From a virus, in the IMG/VR virus record IMGVR_UViG_3300048835_001014, positions 1 to 54,893 of that record: 54,893 nt of DNA, one strand, 5' to 3'. Position numbers and translations under genes: made by a program. Below, one piece after another: positions 17,160 through 23,520 of this stretch. The notes under the pieces were generated by a model. It was not told the origin of the DNA. It ran no database searches and saw only the letters and a list, made by a program, of their open reading frames with translations. Numbering within the stretch: position 1 is the stretch's first letter; every line of letters starts with the position of its first letter.

Positions 17160-17431
17160 CGCCGCAGCCGCAAGTCACTCACGATCCAGTCGATCGTCCT
17201 CGCCATTACACGTTCGGCGGCATCGAAGTGATCGATGCAATCGAAGCGTGGGGATGCGATTTTGTAGAGGGCAACATCATCAAGTACGTAGCTCGTTGGA
17301 AACACAAAGATGGAGTGACGGATTTACGAAAGGCGGCATGGTATCTGAATCGACTTATCGACCGGGAGATCGAGCGACGAACGGCTGAGCAAGAGCCAGT
17401 CACAGACACACCGCGGGAGATCGAAACATGA
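17156..17431 (+). CDS. DUF3310 family protein
   Basis: A 91-aa protein of the DUF3310 family, common in phages and sometimes named protein of unknown function near nucleotide-metabolism genes. The diagnostic run is D-P-V-x-R-P-x-H-Y, then GIEVIDAIEAWG and NIIKYVARWKHKDG with LRKAAWYL. It overlaps the helicase gene (ATGA) and the primase gene (ATGA), so the three form a tight translation unit. The function is not established. Confidence 0.88.
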   Translation: MTPQPQVTHDPVDRPRHYTFGGIEVIDAIEAWGCDFVEGNIIKYVARWKHKDGVTDLRKAAWYLNRLIDREIERRTAEQEPVTDTPREIET

Positions 17432-20007
17432 GCTCCGCGGCTTCCGTTGACCTCCATCTGATACATGCCAACGCGCCGGCCGGCGTGCGCGACAGCCCGC
17501 AGTGGGTCGCGTGGAAATACATTGAGCGGGACGGCAAGCCGACAAAGTCGCCGATCAATCCGCACACAGGCGAATTCGCCAGTTCGACGGACGCATCCAC
17601 CTGGGGAACATTCGACGAAGCAATTGCCGCCTGCAGCAATGACTCCAGCCTCGCCGGCGTGGGATTCGTGTTCACTGCCGACGACCCGTACTGCGGCGTC
17701 GATCTGGACGATTGCCGCGATCCCGAAAGCGGCCAGCTCAAGGACTGGGCGCGTGAGATCGTCGAGCAGCTTGCCAGCTACAGCGAAGTCAGCCCCTCGG
17801 GTACCGGCGTCAAAGTGTTCCTGAAAGCGACCAAACCGGGATCGCGCTGTCGCAAAGCCTATCACGACGGCGAAGTCGAGATTTACGACCGCGACCGGTT
17901 CTTCACGGTCACCGGGGAGCGTCTCGACGAAACGCCGGCCAGCATTGAGGAGCGGCAGGACCAGCTTGACACACTCTACCTGGCCGTGTTCGGCGACGAT
18001 GGCCACAGTGATGGACCGCCAGTGCCGTCGGGAACACCGGGGCCAAAGCCCAGCAACAACGGTCACGTCCATCTCGACGACAACGAAATTGTCGAGCTTG
18101 CGTCAAACCAACGACGCAGCGGAGCGAAGTTTGCGGCGCTCTGGTCGGGCGACTGGAACTCCCATTTCAATTCCGCCAGCGAGGCGGATTCGTCGGTCGT
18201 GTTCACGCTGGCGTTCTACACGAAGGATGCCGCGCAAATCGACCGGCTGTTCCGCAGCTCGGGACTGATGCGTCCCAAGTGGGACGAGCAACATGGAGAG
18301 CAAACCTACGGCCAGATGACGGTCGCCAAGGCCCTGGGCAAGGTCACCAAGCAATACAAGCCGAAGGGCAAAAGAAACGGCAAATCGAAAAAGCCACGTC
18401 CAGCACCACCCCCGCCAAGCAACCCGAGCCTGCCGGCAATCCTGATTGATGACCGGCAACTCAGCGAATTGACTGATGAGGCGATGGCGGCTGTCGCGCT
18501 TGGCAACGATCCGCCCTCCGTCTTTGTCCGGGGCGGCACATTGGCACGAGTCGTAAAAGACGAGCACGGCCAACCCAAGATTGAATCCTTCGACCGCGCG
18601 CGGGTGCGATGCCGTCTCAGCGAGGTGGCCAACTTCTTCACCATGCGGAAGGGAGAAGACGGGTTTGAACCTGTCGGCACCAACCCGCCGCTCTCACTGG
18701 CCGAGAACGTCTTGGCGCTCGGGCGATGGAGTCTACCGCCCCTGGTCGGTATCACATGCGCGCCCATCTTGCGAGTTGACGGCACGATTTGCACGTCGCC
18801 CGGATACGACGCGACTTCCAAGTTGATGTATTGCCCCGATCCGGGCCTCACACTGACACCAATCCCGGAGTATCCGGACAGCAACGAGACGCAGGCGTGC
18901 GTGGACATCCTGCTGAACGTTATCGGCGAGTTTCCGTTTGCCGATGACGCCAGCCGCGCCAACGCTCTGGCGATTCTGTTCTCGATCCTGATGCGGCCAG
19001 TGATTGCGGGCCACGTCCCGCTGGCGATCGTCGACGCTCCCATGCAGGGAACAGGCAAGACGTTGCTCGTTACGGCGCTGGCCACGATCGCGGTTGGCAA
19101 CGTGGCTGCCGAATCGATCCCGACCAAACAAAACGAGGACGAATGGCGGAAGAAGATTACGTCCATCCTGCTGGCCGCCTCGCCGTTCGTCATGTTGGAG
19201 AACATCCCCGACAACACCAACATCGATTCACCGTCGTTGGCTGCGGCTCTCACATCCAACGAGTGGTCCGACCGGCTTCTCGGTCGGAACGAAACGGTCC
19301 GCCTGCCCGCTCGAGCTGTGTGGGCGGCCACGGGCAATAACCTGCGAGTCACCGGCGACATGCCGCGACGCAGTTACAGTATCCGCCTGGATGCCAACAA
19401 CGAACGACCGTGGGAACGAACGGGATTTCACATCAAACAATTGGAATCCTACGTCAAGGCACAACGCGGCGACCTGCTGTCGGCCGCTCTCACGATCATT
19501 CGCGCCTGGTACACGAACGGTAAGCCGCATGCGGACGTTCCGACTCTCGGTAGCTTCGAGGAGTGGGCCAATACCGTCGGCAGTGTGCTGGCGTTTGCAG
19601 GCCTCCCAGACTTTCTCGGTAACCTCTCCAATACACAGGTCGTGCAGGACGACGACACGCAGCAGTGGAAAGCCTTCTTCGTGGCCTGGTGGGACCGCTT
19701 TGAAAACGAGCAGGTTGCGGCCAGCGACATTTGCAGCTTGGTCCTGCCACCCAAAGACGCCCTCTCGCAAACCGTGGACCAGACGTTTCTTGATGCACTC
19801 CCCGAGCCGTTTCTGGTCAACAGGGACCGTGGCGAAGGCTCGCTCAAACGGTCGATCGGAAGGCATCTGTCGCGCCTGACGGGGCGCATCTTCAACGGCC
19901 GAAAGCTGCGCGACGCGGGCACTGACGGCCACAAACACGTCCGCAAGTGGAAGCTGGAACCGGTGGTCACAACTGACGGTTCTCCGGCGCCAGGAGGTGA
20001 ATGGTGA
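17428..20007 (+). CDS. Phage primase-polymerase/helicase protein
   Basis: An 859-aa replication protein. The N-terminal domain (about 15-170) resembles bifunctional primase-polymerases: G-V-D92-L-D94-D95 gives the metal-binding acids and SPSGTGVKVFLK the usual nucleotide strand. A helical linker domain (about 210-320) contains DSSVVFTLAFYTKDAAQID and a basic stretch. The C-terminal ATPase has Walker A at MQGTGKT (539-545) and the LRVTGDMPRRSYSIRLD arginine segment. The last 100 residues form a separate domain that recurs as the free protein at 20522-20887. It overlaps the DUF3310 gene by four bases and lies directly upstream of the repeats proposed as the origin. Confidence 0.88.
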   Translation: MSSAASVDLHLIHANAPAGVRDSPQWVAWKYIERDGKPTKSPINPHTGEFASSTDASTWGTFDEAIAACSNDSSLAGVGFVFTADDPYCGVDLDDCRDPESGQLKDWAREIVEQLASYSEVSPSGTGVKVFLKATKPGSRCRKAYHDGEVEIYDRDRFFTVTGERLDETPASIEERQDQLDTLYLAVFGDDGHSDGPPVPSGTPGPKPSNNGHVHLDDNEIVELASNQRRSGAKFAALWSGDWNSHFNSASEADSSVVFTLAFYTKDAAQIDRLFRSSGLMRPKWDEQHGEQTYGQMTVAKALGKVTKQYKPKGKRNGKSKKPRPAPPPPSNPSLPAILIDDRQLSELTDEAMAAVALGNDPPSVFVRGGTLARVVKDEHGQPKIESFDRARVRCRLSEVANFFTMRKGEDGFEPVGTNPPLSLAENVLALGRWSLPPLVGITCAPILRVDGTICTSPGYDATSKLMYCPDPGLTLTPIPEYPDSNETQACVDILLNVIGEFPFADDASRANALAILFSILMRPVIAGHVPLAIVDAPMQGTGKTLLVTALATIAVGNVAAESIPTKQNEDEWRKKITSILLAASPFVMLENIPDNTNIDSPSLAAALTSNEWSDRLLGRNETVRLPARAVWAATGNNLRVTGDMPRRSYSIRLDANNERPWERTGFHIKQLESYVKAQRGDLLSAALTIIRAWYTNGKPHADVPTLGSFEEWANTVGSVLAFAGLPDFLGNLSNTQVVQDDDTQQWKAFFVAWWDRFENEQVAASDICSLVLPPKDALSQTVDQTFLDALPEPFLVNRDRGEGSLKRSIGRHLSRLTGRIFNGRKLRDAGTDGHKHVRKWKLEPVVTTDGSPAPGGEW

Positions 20008-20531
20008 TGCTCCAGATCGGTCGTCACGACGACATGACAACCGCCAGCGAGGCGCGCGCGCAGACCATGTACAAGGGCGCGTACATGGCCACGTACAACG
20101 CGATGTACATGGCCTTGTACATGGTGTTGCGCGCGGATGTACATGTACGCCACGTCGGCTACGGAAATCGCAGCATCATCGGACACCACAACACCTTAGT
20201 TGCTGCTGGGGTCAGTTCCGACCTCCGAATCCGTAACCTCGCATTCGAGTCCGTAACCGCGCATTTTTGGAACCGTAACCTCGCATTTTTGGGGTCAGAC
20301 GCGTGCCGTAACCTCGCAACCGTTTCCGTAACCTCGCAGCCGTTTTCAAGGGGCATAAGGACTTACGGCAATTCTGCGAGGTTACGAGCCCGATTTTGTC
20401 TATGCCTTACGCGTGTGCGGGCGCGCACGTGCGCACGCGCAGGAACAAAAAACGGCGCACATGAAAGTAGCGGGAAAATAATTTCGCGTAACCTCGTAAC
20501 CTCGCATTCAAAGGCACCGACATGGAAGTGA
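20007..20531 (+). CDS. Doubtful ORF running through the repeat region
   Basis: An open frame starts just after the primase gene, at ATG 20001 or ATG 20007, with AGGAGG at 19992-19997. Its first 50 residues contain five Tyr-led tetrads (YKGA, YMAT, YNAM, YMAL, YMVL) that come directly from a 12-bp DNA repeat. Later it is Arg/Asn/Cys-rich and changes character as it crosses the other repeats, which fall in different frames. The ribosome site argues for at least initiation; the composition argues against a folded product. It may be translated only briefly. Confidence 0.25.
   Translation: MLQIGRHDDMTTASEARAQTMYKGAYMATYNAMYMALYMVLRADVHVRHVGYGNRSIIGHHNTLVAAGVSSDLRIRNLAFESVTAHFWNRNLAFLGSDACRNLATVSVTSQPFSRGIRTYGNSARLRARFCLCLTRVRARTCARAGTKNGAHESSGKIISRNLVTSHSKAPTWK
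20069..20148. repeat. 12-bp tandem repeat beginning GTAC
   Basis: GTAC occurs at 20069, 20081, 20093, 20105 and 20117, exactly 12 bases apart, then at 20139 and 20145. The units are GTACAAGGGCGC, GTACATGGCCAC, GTACAACGCGAT, GTACATGGCCTT and GTACATGGTGTT. Several are centred on the palindrome TGTACA. The spacing is close to one helical turn, so a protein could bind one face. It lies 62 bases downstream of the primase stop. Confidence 0.85.
20232..20506. repeat. Iteron-like repeats CGTAACCTCGCA, candidate replication origin
   Basis: Eight copies of a 12-mer are present. Perfect CGTAACCTCGCA copies start at 20232, 20274, 20307, 20327 and 20495. A perfect inverted copy is at 20375-20386. One-mismatch copies start at 20252 and 20487. 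The first five are spaced 20, 22, 33 and 20 bases, near whole helical turns. An AT-rich stretch (about 20472-20485) lies before the last pair and a 12-base palindrome lies in the middle. Iterons next to a primase-helicase gene are the usual picture of a phage or plasmid origin. The repeats are seen directly; origin function is inferred. Confidence 0.8.
20423..20434. repeat. Palindrome GCGCACGTGCGC in alternating purine-pyrimidine DNA
   Basis: GCGCACGTGCGC is a perfect 12-base palindrome. The 20 bases from 20421 to 20440 alternate purine and pyrimidine without a break, a pattern that favours left-handed DNA under torsion. It lies between the inverted and the last direct iteron. Confidence 0.7.
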
Positions 20532-20887
20532 TATGCACGACTCGCCGGCCGCTTGTCGGTGATGAACAGCTTGACGAATGGCTACCGCTCCTCACCGCTT
20601 GGTGGAGGCATTTTCGCGATGAACCTGTCACGGTGGACGAATTGCGAATCTCGCTCTCTCTCGATGTGCCGGGCGACGCAGTCGTGATTCCGACTTCGCT
20701 GATGAGACCTCGCCGCAAGGGACCTGGAGCATTGAAACGGTCTCTGGGCAGGCGCCTGGCCGCACTCGTCGGTTGGACGATTGGTCCGTTCATCGTGTGC
20801 GACGGCGGACGAGACACTCGGCACAACGTTCGTGTGTGGCGATTGCGGTGCATCTGGTCGTCTACGCAACAGGGAGCCGACCAATGA
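20522..20887 (+). CDS. Free copy of the primase C-terminal domain
   Basis: A 121-aa protein that resembles the last 100 residues of the primase-helicase encoded at 17428-20007. Both share a W-x5-F/L-x-x-AWW opening. Later both carry a G-x-L-K-R-S-[IL]-G-R-x-L-x-x-L-x-G run and a D-G-x(4)-[HN]-x-V-R-x-W-[KR]-L ending. It begins right after the last iteron. The domain probably adopts a winged-helix fold, so the free copy could bind the origin or compete with the primase. The similarity is read by eye, and function is inferred. Confidence 0.7.
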   Translation: MEVICTTRRPLVGDEQLDEWLPLLTAWWRHFRDEPVTVDELRISLSLDVPGDAVVIPTSLMRPRRKGPGALKRSLGRRLAALVGWTIGPFIVCDGGRDTRHNVRVWRLRCIWSSTQQGADQ

Positions 20888-21975: not shown

Positions 21976-22126
21976 TCTGTGCGACGGTTGCTCGTGGCGG
22001 CTTCTAACTCGCCACGCCACGATCCGCCCGTTCACTCTGGACCCCATCGAAGTACCACCGTCAGGCAACGAAGCCGACGGCTTACAAGCGATTGCGATTC
22101 GCATTTTGGAGGAGGACTGCAGATGA
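21893..22126 (+). CDS. Small zinc-ribbon protein (77 aa)
   Basis: Contains CLIC near residue 18 and CDGC near residue 33 (ICLICNTRPKSGNDDLCDGC), a compact zinc site. The start was set at the ATG at 21893 because GGAGG lies directly before it; an in-frame ATG at 21881 contains that ribosome site. It overlaps the methyltransferase gene by four bases, so it may be made together with it. Confidence 0.65.
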   Translation: MTSSTAMILPDKRICLICNTRPKSGNDDLCDGCSWRLLTRHATIRPFTLDPIEVPPSGNEADGLQAIAIRILEEDCR

Positions 22127-23520
22127 AGATCGAACTGAAGAACATCGCCGACATCAAACCGTATCCGAACAACCCACGCATCAACGACGATGCAGTCGAC
22201 GCCGTGGTCGCATCGATCCGCGAGTTCGGCTTCCGCCAACCAATCGTTGTGGATACGGAGCTGGTGATCGTCTGCGGGCACACTCGGTACAAGGCCGCGC
22301 TGAAGCTGGGTCTGAAGAAAGTGCCGGTTCACATCGCCAAGGATCTGACGCCCGAGCAGATCAAGGCGTATCGGATCGCAGATAACAAGACGGCCGAGTT
22401 GGCCGAGTGGAATTACGATCTGCTGCCCATCGAGTTGGGTGAACTGCAGGCCCTCAACTATGACATGACCTTGCTGGGCTTCGATCCCGATGACCTGGCG
22501 CAGCTGCTCGATCCGGGCGTTACCGAAGGACTCACCGATCCGGACGATGTCCCGGAGCCGCCCGACGAAGCGATTACCCAAGTTGGCGACCTCTGGATAC
22601 TCGGTGATCATCGTTTGCTATGTGCAGACAGCAGCAAACCGGAGGACGTGGATCGGCTGCTCGATGGGGCGGTGATCCATTTGGTGAACACCGACCCTCC
22701 GTACAATGTCCGCGTGGAGCCGCGCAGCAACAACGCCATCGCCGCAGGTCTCAGTTCGTTCTCGAATGATGCAGCGGCCAAGAAACTGAAAGCTGGCCAG
22801 GGCAACGCCTCGTTCGATGTCGCTCGTGGCAAGAAGAAGTCTGGCAACGAGCATCATCAGAAGTTCGACCTGGCTCGCCATCCTGAGAAGGCGAAGCCGA
22901 CACAGAAAAAGATGCGGGCCAAGGACCGTCCGCTGGCGAACGACTTTGTGAGCGACGAAGAGTTCGACCGATTGCTGATGGCGTGGTTCGGCAACATCGC
23001 CCGCGTGCTGCTGCCTGGGCATGGGTTCTATGTGTGGGGCGGGTACGCCAACGTCGCGAATTATCCGCCCGTGTTCAAGCGGTGCTCCATGTATTTCTCG
23101 CAGGCGGTGATCTGGCACAAGATGCACCCCGTGTTGACTCGCAAGGATTTTATGGGCGACCACGAGTGGTGCTTCTATGGCTGGCGCGAGGGCGCGGCGC
23201 ATCGTTACTTCGGTCCGAACAATGTGCCTGACGTATGGTCGATTAAGAAGGTCAACCCTCAGTCAATGATTCATTTGACCGAGAAGCCTGTCGAGTTGGC
23301 TGTGCGTGCGATTCAGTATTCGTCGCTCGCCGGTGAGAATGTTCTCGACCTCTTCGGCGGCAGTGGATCGACCTTGATTGCGTGCGAGCAGACTGGCCGC
23401 AAGGCGTTCTTAATGGAACTGGACCCACCGTATTGTGACGTGATTGTCCAGCGTTGGGAAAAGTTCACTGGCAAGAAGGCGCAGCGAGTCGAGGCAGTTG
23501 TGCAGGAGGCCAACGTGTGA
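22123..23520 (+). CDS. ParB-domain DNA methyltransferase (beta class)
   Basis: A 465-aa fusion. Residues 1-120 are a ParB/Srx-like domain (ADIKPYPNNPRIN, then VDTELVIVCGHTRYKAAL and IKAYRIADNKTAEL). Residues 155-460 are an N4-cytosine/N6-adenine methyltransferase. The catalytic motif D191-P-P-Y194 precedes the AdoMet motif F411-G-G-S-G-S, which is the beta-class order. An insert between them (about 205-275) is Lys/Ala-rich. This fusion is common in phages and usually methylates a short DNA site, protecting phage DNA from host restriction. No cognate nuclease is seen here. It begins behind GGAGGAGG and overlaps both neighbours by a few bases. Confidence 0.92.
   Translation: MKIELKNIADIKPYPNNPRINDDAVDAVVASIREFGFRQPIVVDTELVIVCGHTRYKAALKLGLKKVPVHIAKDLTPEQIKAYRIADNKTAELAEWNYDLLPIELGELQALNYDMTLLGFDPDDLAQLLDPGVTEGLTDPDDVPEPPDEAITQVGDLWILGDHRLLCADSSKPEDVDRLLDGAVIHLVNTDPPYNVRVEPRSNNAIAAGLSSFSNDAAAKKLKAGQGNASFDVARGKKKSGNEHHQKFDLARHPEKAKPTQKKMRAKDRPLANDFVSDEEFDRLLMAWFGNIARVLLPGHGFYVWGGYANVANYPPVFKRCSMYFSQAVIWHKMHPVLTRKDFMGDHEWCFYGWREGAAHRYFGPNNVPDVWSIKKVNPQSMIHLTEKPVELAVRAIQYSSLAGENVLDLFGGSGSTLIACEQTGRKAFLMELDPPYCDVIVQRWEKFTGKKAQRVEAVVQEANV

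Follow-up and report, generated by a model that had tools for sequence, protein, structure and literature searches.

Origins at which an SF3 helicase initiator is paired with iterons 3′ of its own gene are known from P4, SaPI and SCCmec. In the Rep proteins of SaPI/PICI elements and in SCCmec Cch2 the C-terminal domain recognises iterons directly 3′ of the helicase gene, and two iteron sets surround a melting region in SaPI and SCCmec origins, as described in passages of PMC6092414 and PMC7581432. Satellite phage P4 carries a repeat array (crr), with copies on both strands, just 3′ of the gene for its primase-helicase alpha, for which a passage of PMC4234260 describes a winged-helix reader. 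Proteins with AEP, SF3 and winged-helix parts are also encoded by the Sulfolobus plasmid pRN1 (ORF904) and Bordetella phage BIP-1, where inverted arms lie 3′ of the gene and are essential in pRN1. The relevant passages of PMC4234260 describe pRN1 without iterons, propose a stem-loop for BIP-1 after a search for repeats, and report no specific binding of the pRN1 protein to the downstream region in gel shifts or footprints. For NrS-1, passages of PMC8718748 and PMC7102993 give an 8-nt primase recognition site as a possible origin and make no mention of iterons: the site is TTTGGTTA (PMC8718748), present in two copies in the genome (PMC7102993). Judged by titles and the beginnings of abstracts, no report of iterons at NrS-1-type origins was found in the open-access papers covered by our searches. 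We describe here an array of the known kind in what appears from sequence to be a new setting, whole phages with an NrS-1-type PrimPol.

The window is the whole viral record of 54,893 bases. It carries a match to serine-type integrases, an exonuclease, a Sak4-like annealing protein and a RecD2-like helicase, and it encodes its own terminase, portal and head protease-capsid genes; because of this combination of integrase, replication and virion genes the record reads as a tailed, probably temperate phage. In this it is unlike the SaPI/PICI and SCCmec elements, which are satellites or islands, PICIs being defined as satellites without a full virion gene set. Relatives were found mostly in Planctomycetota assemblies, both as phages and as prophages. 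A DNA-level search with 7 kb gave matches only to the methylase and ParB, a scan for sigma-70 promoters and terminators returned nothing, and Rfam gave only microRNA models on simple repeats, far under their gathering scores.

The proposed initiator is a PrimPol-SF3 helicase of 859 aa encoded on the plus strand at 17428–20007, in which an AEP primase and a helix-bundle domain, as in NrS-1-type proteins, are followed by a helicase and a predicted C-terminal winged-helix domain. It matches PF22763 (E 1.5e-25), phrog_1829 and phrog_29234, as well as the NrS-1 PrimPol chain 6a9w (E 1.5e-47). We take 6a9w to be the NrS-1 entry; in sequence it matches the NrS-1 record at 100%, which fits. A GTGK motif occupies residues 541–544, and the assignment of the helicase to SF3 comes from the predicted fold: the model of residues 330–859 (mean pLDDT 83.4) finds its best match in the SaPI5 primase-helicase PriRep (7ola; Z 14.4, 324 residues, rmsd 5.7) and also matches poxvirus D5 and the crystallised C-terminal region of NrS-1 (6lrb; Z 11.2, 359 residues, rmsd 9.4). 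The final ∼110 residues form a separate domain, and residues 738–846 (19639–19965, plus strand) are the proposed iteron reader.

Downstream of this gene the 12-mer CGTAACCTCGCA occurs in six exact and two one-mismatch copies, one of them inverted, within 20232–20506, so that all eight copies counted in an earlier, sequence-only reading of this DNA were located. The array starts 225 bases past the primase stop. Five plus-strand iterons at 20232–20243, 20252–20263 (one mismatch), 20274–20285, 20307–20318 and 20327–20338 are followed by an exact minus-strand iteron at 20375–20386 and by two further plus-strand iterons at 20487–20498 (one mismatch) and 20495–20506, the latter exact and starting 8 bp past its neighbour. 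Spacing near whole helical turns had been claimed; this holds for the first five copies (20, 22, 33 and 20 bp) and fails for the remaining distances (about 48–49, 111–112 and 8 bp). The inverted iteron and iteron 7 form the left and right edges of a proposed origin core (20387–20486), which contains an alternating purine–pyrimidine run of 21 bases (20421–20441, ranking in the top 0.2% when compared with equally long stretches across the window) and, close to its right edge, a conserved GGGAAAATAA (20472–20481). The AT-rich stretch said to precede the last pair is present but mild: AT content is 57% at 20440–20486, compared with 45% in the whole core and 39% in the primase gene. GC skew across the window showed no turning point at the array.

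No further exact copy of CGTAACCTCGCA was found anywhere in the record, and five weaker matches lie outside the array: a single-mismatch copy at 40707 and four places with two mismatches. A loose count over the whole window (up to two mismatches) gives 13, a value also reached in 1 of 100 shuffles; the strength of the array is therefore its clustering. Within the 1,600 bases surrounding the primase stop the best 9-mer has six copies versus at most three in 40 Markov shuffles, far more clustering than chance would give.

Arrays at the same place were found in many relatives, with repeats that differ between them. Among the first relatives the core TAACCTCGC recurs directly past the primase in L008, L010, L011/L015 and L012/L014 (L numbers denote loci), and a de novo search on the 3′ side of the primase gave other repeats: TAACCCCGC in L023 (where only degenerate copies occur), L054–L056 and L060, TAACCCGGC in L053, AAGGTATGC in L029, L061 and L062, and AAGTCTGCC in L063 and L065. 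A helicase-profile scan supplied a wider set of 80 loci, of which 72 were passed on and fell into 40 clusters at 90% identity. Counting a cluster as positive when some 9-mer past the C-terminal domain reached five or more copies and exceeded the shuffles, we found arrays on the 3′ side of this DNA-binding domain for 31 of the 40 clusters versus none of 36 upstream controls; repeats in this set vary widely (AGGTTCACA, AGGTTCCCC, AGACCCCCA, ACGTTCCCC, AGATACACC and others). Nine clusters stayed under the threshold, and two loci among these, L105 (on the same contig as L023) and L107, show repeats on inspection. In a Phycisphaerales group the array falls within the 3′ coding tail of the primase itself. 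Where the downstream sequence sufficed, no array above the null was found in L032–L043, L069 and L070, which combine the same PrimPol with another helicase and C-terminus. Ten named phage records were searched near the primase stop as well: arrays were absent in KP1, Langgrundblatt1, Kmi2C, ctUnS216, TPWB-08 and phiAsp2, Marinobacter PS6 was borderline (four copies, null three), and the only repeats of Paracoccus R3 lie 1 kb away from the stop. Most of these phages had been chosen for their similarity to the N-terminal part of NrS-1. Arrays also stand beside primases related to that of the window in their N-terminal part only (L044 5192–5338, L045 7905–8032, L047 6110–6246 and L048 5401–5660); their repeats are quite different, and in L044, L045 and L047 no core is found under our rule, a hint of independent initiator–iteron pairings in these four loci.

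What the arrays share is their spacing. Iterons of one set follow each other on the same strand in 9-bp steps, a plus-strand copy is followed at 37 or 47 bp by a minus-strand copy that faces it, and minus and plus sets flank a core of 60–128 bp, as the two iteron sets of the window do; these rules hold across more than 20 different repeat sequences. When iterons were placed at random within the same spans, a 9-bp same-strand pair was reached in at most 12 of 36 arrays versus 27 observed, an opposite pair at 36–40 or 45–49 bp in at most 21 versus 31, and an opposite pair at 60–128 bp in at most 20 versus 35. The 9-bp and core rules come from the first set of loci and the 37/47-bp class was widened from 47 after the second, so that the spacing test is partly post hoc. 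In the nearest relative, L052, spacings are 21, 21, 21, 20, 48, 106 and 8 bp, and its repeats have changed together from CGTAACCTCGCA to CGTAACCTCGGT or near it. For every one of 21 planctomycete-group cores, the longest alternating purine–pyrimidine run ranks within the top 2.8% when set against equally long stretches from its locus; the cores of NrS-1, vir525 and L080–L082 do not follow this rule.

Similar arrays are present in the described systems. NrS-1 resembles the window in domain order, in fold class and in having an iteron array at the same place, and differs in its repeat: 11 exact copies of AAGTGTAAC stand at +11 to +326 past the primase stop, and none was found outside the array within 6919–37159. 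Within these limits TTTGGTTA occurs once, at 17198, inside the array. At the crr of P4 the annotated type 1 repeats are spaced 9, 43 and 18 bp, with tandems at 9–11 bp and facing pairs at 43 bp, but P4 has a Toprim bacterial-type primase, a second array at a distant ori and the repeat TGTTCACC. BIP-1 contains four copies of AAACGAGGCAA, arranged in two pairs of 9-bp spacing that are inverted relative to each other and enclose 64 bp, ∼470 bases from the end of the replication gene as given in a passage of PMC4234260. The arms of pRN1 hold TGTCCATAGTGTCCA and those of pRN2 GGACCGATAGGACA, each short motif recurring 9 bp apart when judged by eye; as iteron-like spacing this is only suggestive.

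Comparison of the domains with the repeats indicates which part of the protein the repeat follows. L023 shares 94% identity with the window in PrimPol and 50% in the C-terminal domain, and has TAACCCCG in place of TAACCTCG; the same holds for L053 (90% and 59%, repeat TAACCCGG) and L055 (87% and 52%, repeat different). L026, L027, L030 and L057–L059 are only 60–68% identical in PrimPol and 56–58% in the C-terminal domain, yet they carry TAACCTCG. Repeat labels change six times on the PrimPol tree versus four times on the C-domain tree, with a possible minimum of three; the helicase tree likewise requires four changes, so that this test does not separate helicase and C-terminal domain. The window's starred five-row clade in the PrimPol tree spans three repeat classes, and four of the five CCC rows form one starred clade in the C-domain tree. 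The repeat sequence follows the C-terminal domain rather than the primase. Only one alignment column, residue 837 (codon 19936–19938, plus strand), is invariant inside each of the two large repeat classes and tells them apart: all 10 CTC loci, including the window, have His, all five CCC loci have Lys, and the single CGG row has Asn. This residue is predicted to lie in the wing loop in both models. Near relatives checked afterwards agree (L106 and L107, CTC with His; L111, CCC with Lys), and the more distant L114 (CCC) apparently has Lys when judged by eye. On the PrimPol tree just two independent starred pairs connect the repeat with this residue, which is not enough for significance, and we therefore regard position 837 as a lead and not as proof.

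A second version of the C-terminal domain is encoded beyond the array. P0002 (20522–20887, plus strand, 121 aa) is 32% identical to residues 738–846 of the primase (E 1e-13), which bears out the earlier description of the array as flanked by the primase-helicase gene and a free copy of its C-terminal domain. Its model (pLDDT 82.8) consists of helices 58–66 and 68–82, a predicted helix-turn-helix, followed by strands 90–98 and 103–110, the predicted wing, and resembles generic winged-helix domains (best VIA Z 6.3); Foldseek matches, mostly to ribosomal proteins, had E-values of 0.2 or worse and were set aside. Its wing residue is Asn102, unlike the His of the primase. The L052 copy is 70% identical, with dN 0.215 versus dS 1.14, so that it is under protein-level constraint as the primase C domain is. 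Among 113 loci with a domain hit, duplicates included, a second copy is present only in the window and in L052, and a search with P0002 alone found no relatives in phages or IMG/VR. This free protein had been proposed as the origin binder. It is less likely to be the main one, since arrays of the same kind occur at loci without P0002 and the repeat sequence tracks the primase's own C-terminal domain; its presence in just two of 113 loci makes it probably an accessory factor or antagonist. By analogy with plasmid pIGRK, where a truncated Rep acts as a negative regulator and both full-length and truncated Rep repress their own gene (PMC6854812), we infer a competitor limiting initiation or an autorepressor.

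The idea of a replication origin, which the sequence-only reading had put forward, has good and unusually clear comparative support from the position of the arrays, their shared layout, the way in which repeats change along with the DNA-binding domain, the NrS-1 array and the annotated P4 repeats; it is still a prediction at the level of sequence. We consider it quite likely that the array is a phage origin bound by the C-terminal domain of the primase-helicase itself, with two helicase rings loaded. The winged helix would bind the repeats as double-stranded DNA, and the inverted sets flanking the ∼100-bp core would load two SF3 rings head to head. Once these rings had melted the core, both strands would be primed by the PrimPol parts of these proteins and bidirectional theta replication would follow; the free domain copy may compete for the same sites and in this way limit initiation or repress the operon. 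Points against this reading are the modest AT content of the core, a GC skew that does not turn at the array, the six named phages without an array and the lack of specific binding reported for the pRN1 protein. Most phage origins are unknown, and if this reading is true any phage with an initiator of this type has an origin that can be found, the published recognition site of NrS-1 comes to lie inside an origin, and dozens of natural initiator–iteron pairs of differing sequence become available for learning how an SF3 initiator reads DNA.

If the essential element were a large stem-loop or cruciform, of the kind put forward for pRN1 and BIP-1, the repeats would matter through pairing only. 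The core of the window together with its inverted iterons does fold better than 200 of 200 shuffles (z −3.6), and a changed pRN1 stem replicated only with its symmetry restored (passage of PMC4234260). However, most copies are direct repeats outside any stem, with one sequence per locus and fixed spacing across loci, their sequence follows a DNA-binding domain, and the inverted arms of BIP-1 are themselves tandem repeats 9 bp apart. We regard pairing as the sole role of the repeats as unlikely.

The array could instead be an operator for the downstream operon, repressed by the free domain or the primase and without origin function. Its last iteron ends 15 bases before the start codon of the free copy, and self-repression of the pIGRK kind would fit this reading. 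Against it, no sigma-70-like promoter was found in 19900–20700 (a result of little weight if the host is not E. coli-like), the array is kept where the free copy is absent, in the Phycisphaerales group it lies inside coding sequence of the primase, and inverted sets around a core exceed what an operator needs. Operator function alone seems to us distinctly improbable, although the array could serve as an operator in addition to being an origin.

We also considered single-stranded priming sites read by the PrimPol and helix-bundle domains in place of a duplex-binding array, given that TTTGGTTA falls inside the NrS-1 array and that GGTTA is common to TTTGGTTA and the complement of the window repeat. 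The changed repeats beside PrimPol domains of 94% and 90% identity, and the unchanged repeat beside those of 60–68%, make this very improbable, but priming may be a second use of the same DNA. A partition or methylase site for the neighbouring ParB_N–methyltransferase (21979–23520) has next to no plausibility: the gene does lie downstream in 21 of 23 loci checked, but its ParB_N part is 92% identical in L023, where the repeat differs, and 67–69% identical in six loci sharing the window repeat (L026, L030 and L057–L059 among them), and the annotation next to the NrS-1 array shows no gene of this type.

The origin reading can be extended, tentatively, to a joint one that we hold to be possible but less likely than not. 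One origin grammar, of 9-bp tandem iterons, facing sets 37–47 bp apart and a core of 60–130 bp, would be read by the initiator's own C-terminal winged helix, often with the array kept inside an open frame, and replicons of the AEP-SF3 type in phages, in satellites and perhaps in archaeal plasmids would have it in common. pRN1 and BIP-1, with their stem-loop origins, would show this grammar in degenerate form, a change at one wing residue (837, for example) could shift its specificity, and the free copy would be a self-made origin antagonist. If true, stem-loop and iteron models, now held apart, would become linked.

An open frame on the plus strand (20001–20531) runs through the whole array, sharing bases with the primase stop at one end and with the beginning of the free copy at the other, the latter overlap being seen in L052 as well. 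Of 22 loci, 17 have the corresponding frame open where shuffles predict 3.2, the exceptions being L053, L080, L081, L048 and L086. It is open in all 10 loci of the window repeat class (P ≤ 0.02 for each when the iterons are left unshuffled), which is very unlikely by chance, and noise was dropped as an explanation. Substitutions in eight pairs showed no codon-position bias, so we make no claim of a conserved protein; a translatable origin might perhaps be maintained to let transcription pass on to the downstream genes. The NrS-1 array likewise lies within an open frame (L090 10137–10538), annotated as a CDS. In L189 (1862–4777) the protein sequence of the primase tail contains NTANTANTAN-like runs, which are apparently translated repeats.

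Across the loci with the ParB_N–DNA methyltransferase fusion downstream of the array, ParB_N identity goes down to 37%. Between the primase stop and the array of the window lie TGTACA-rich alternating purine–pyrimidine repeats with 12-bp spacing (20062–20145), where four of the window's 11 TGTACA sites are packed into ∼75 bases. Similar stretches precede or fill the arrays of L026, L052 and L057.
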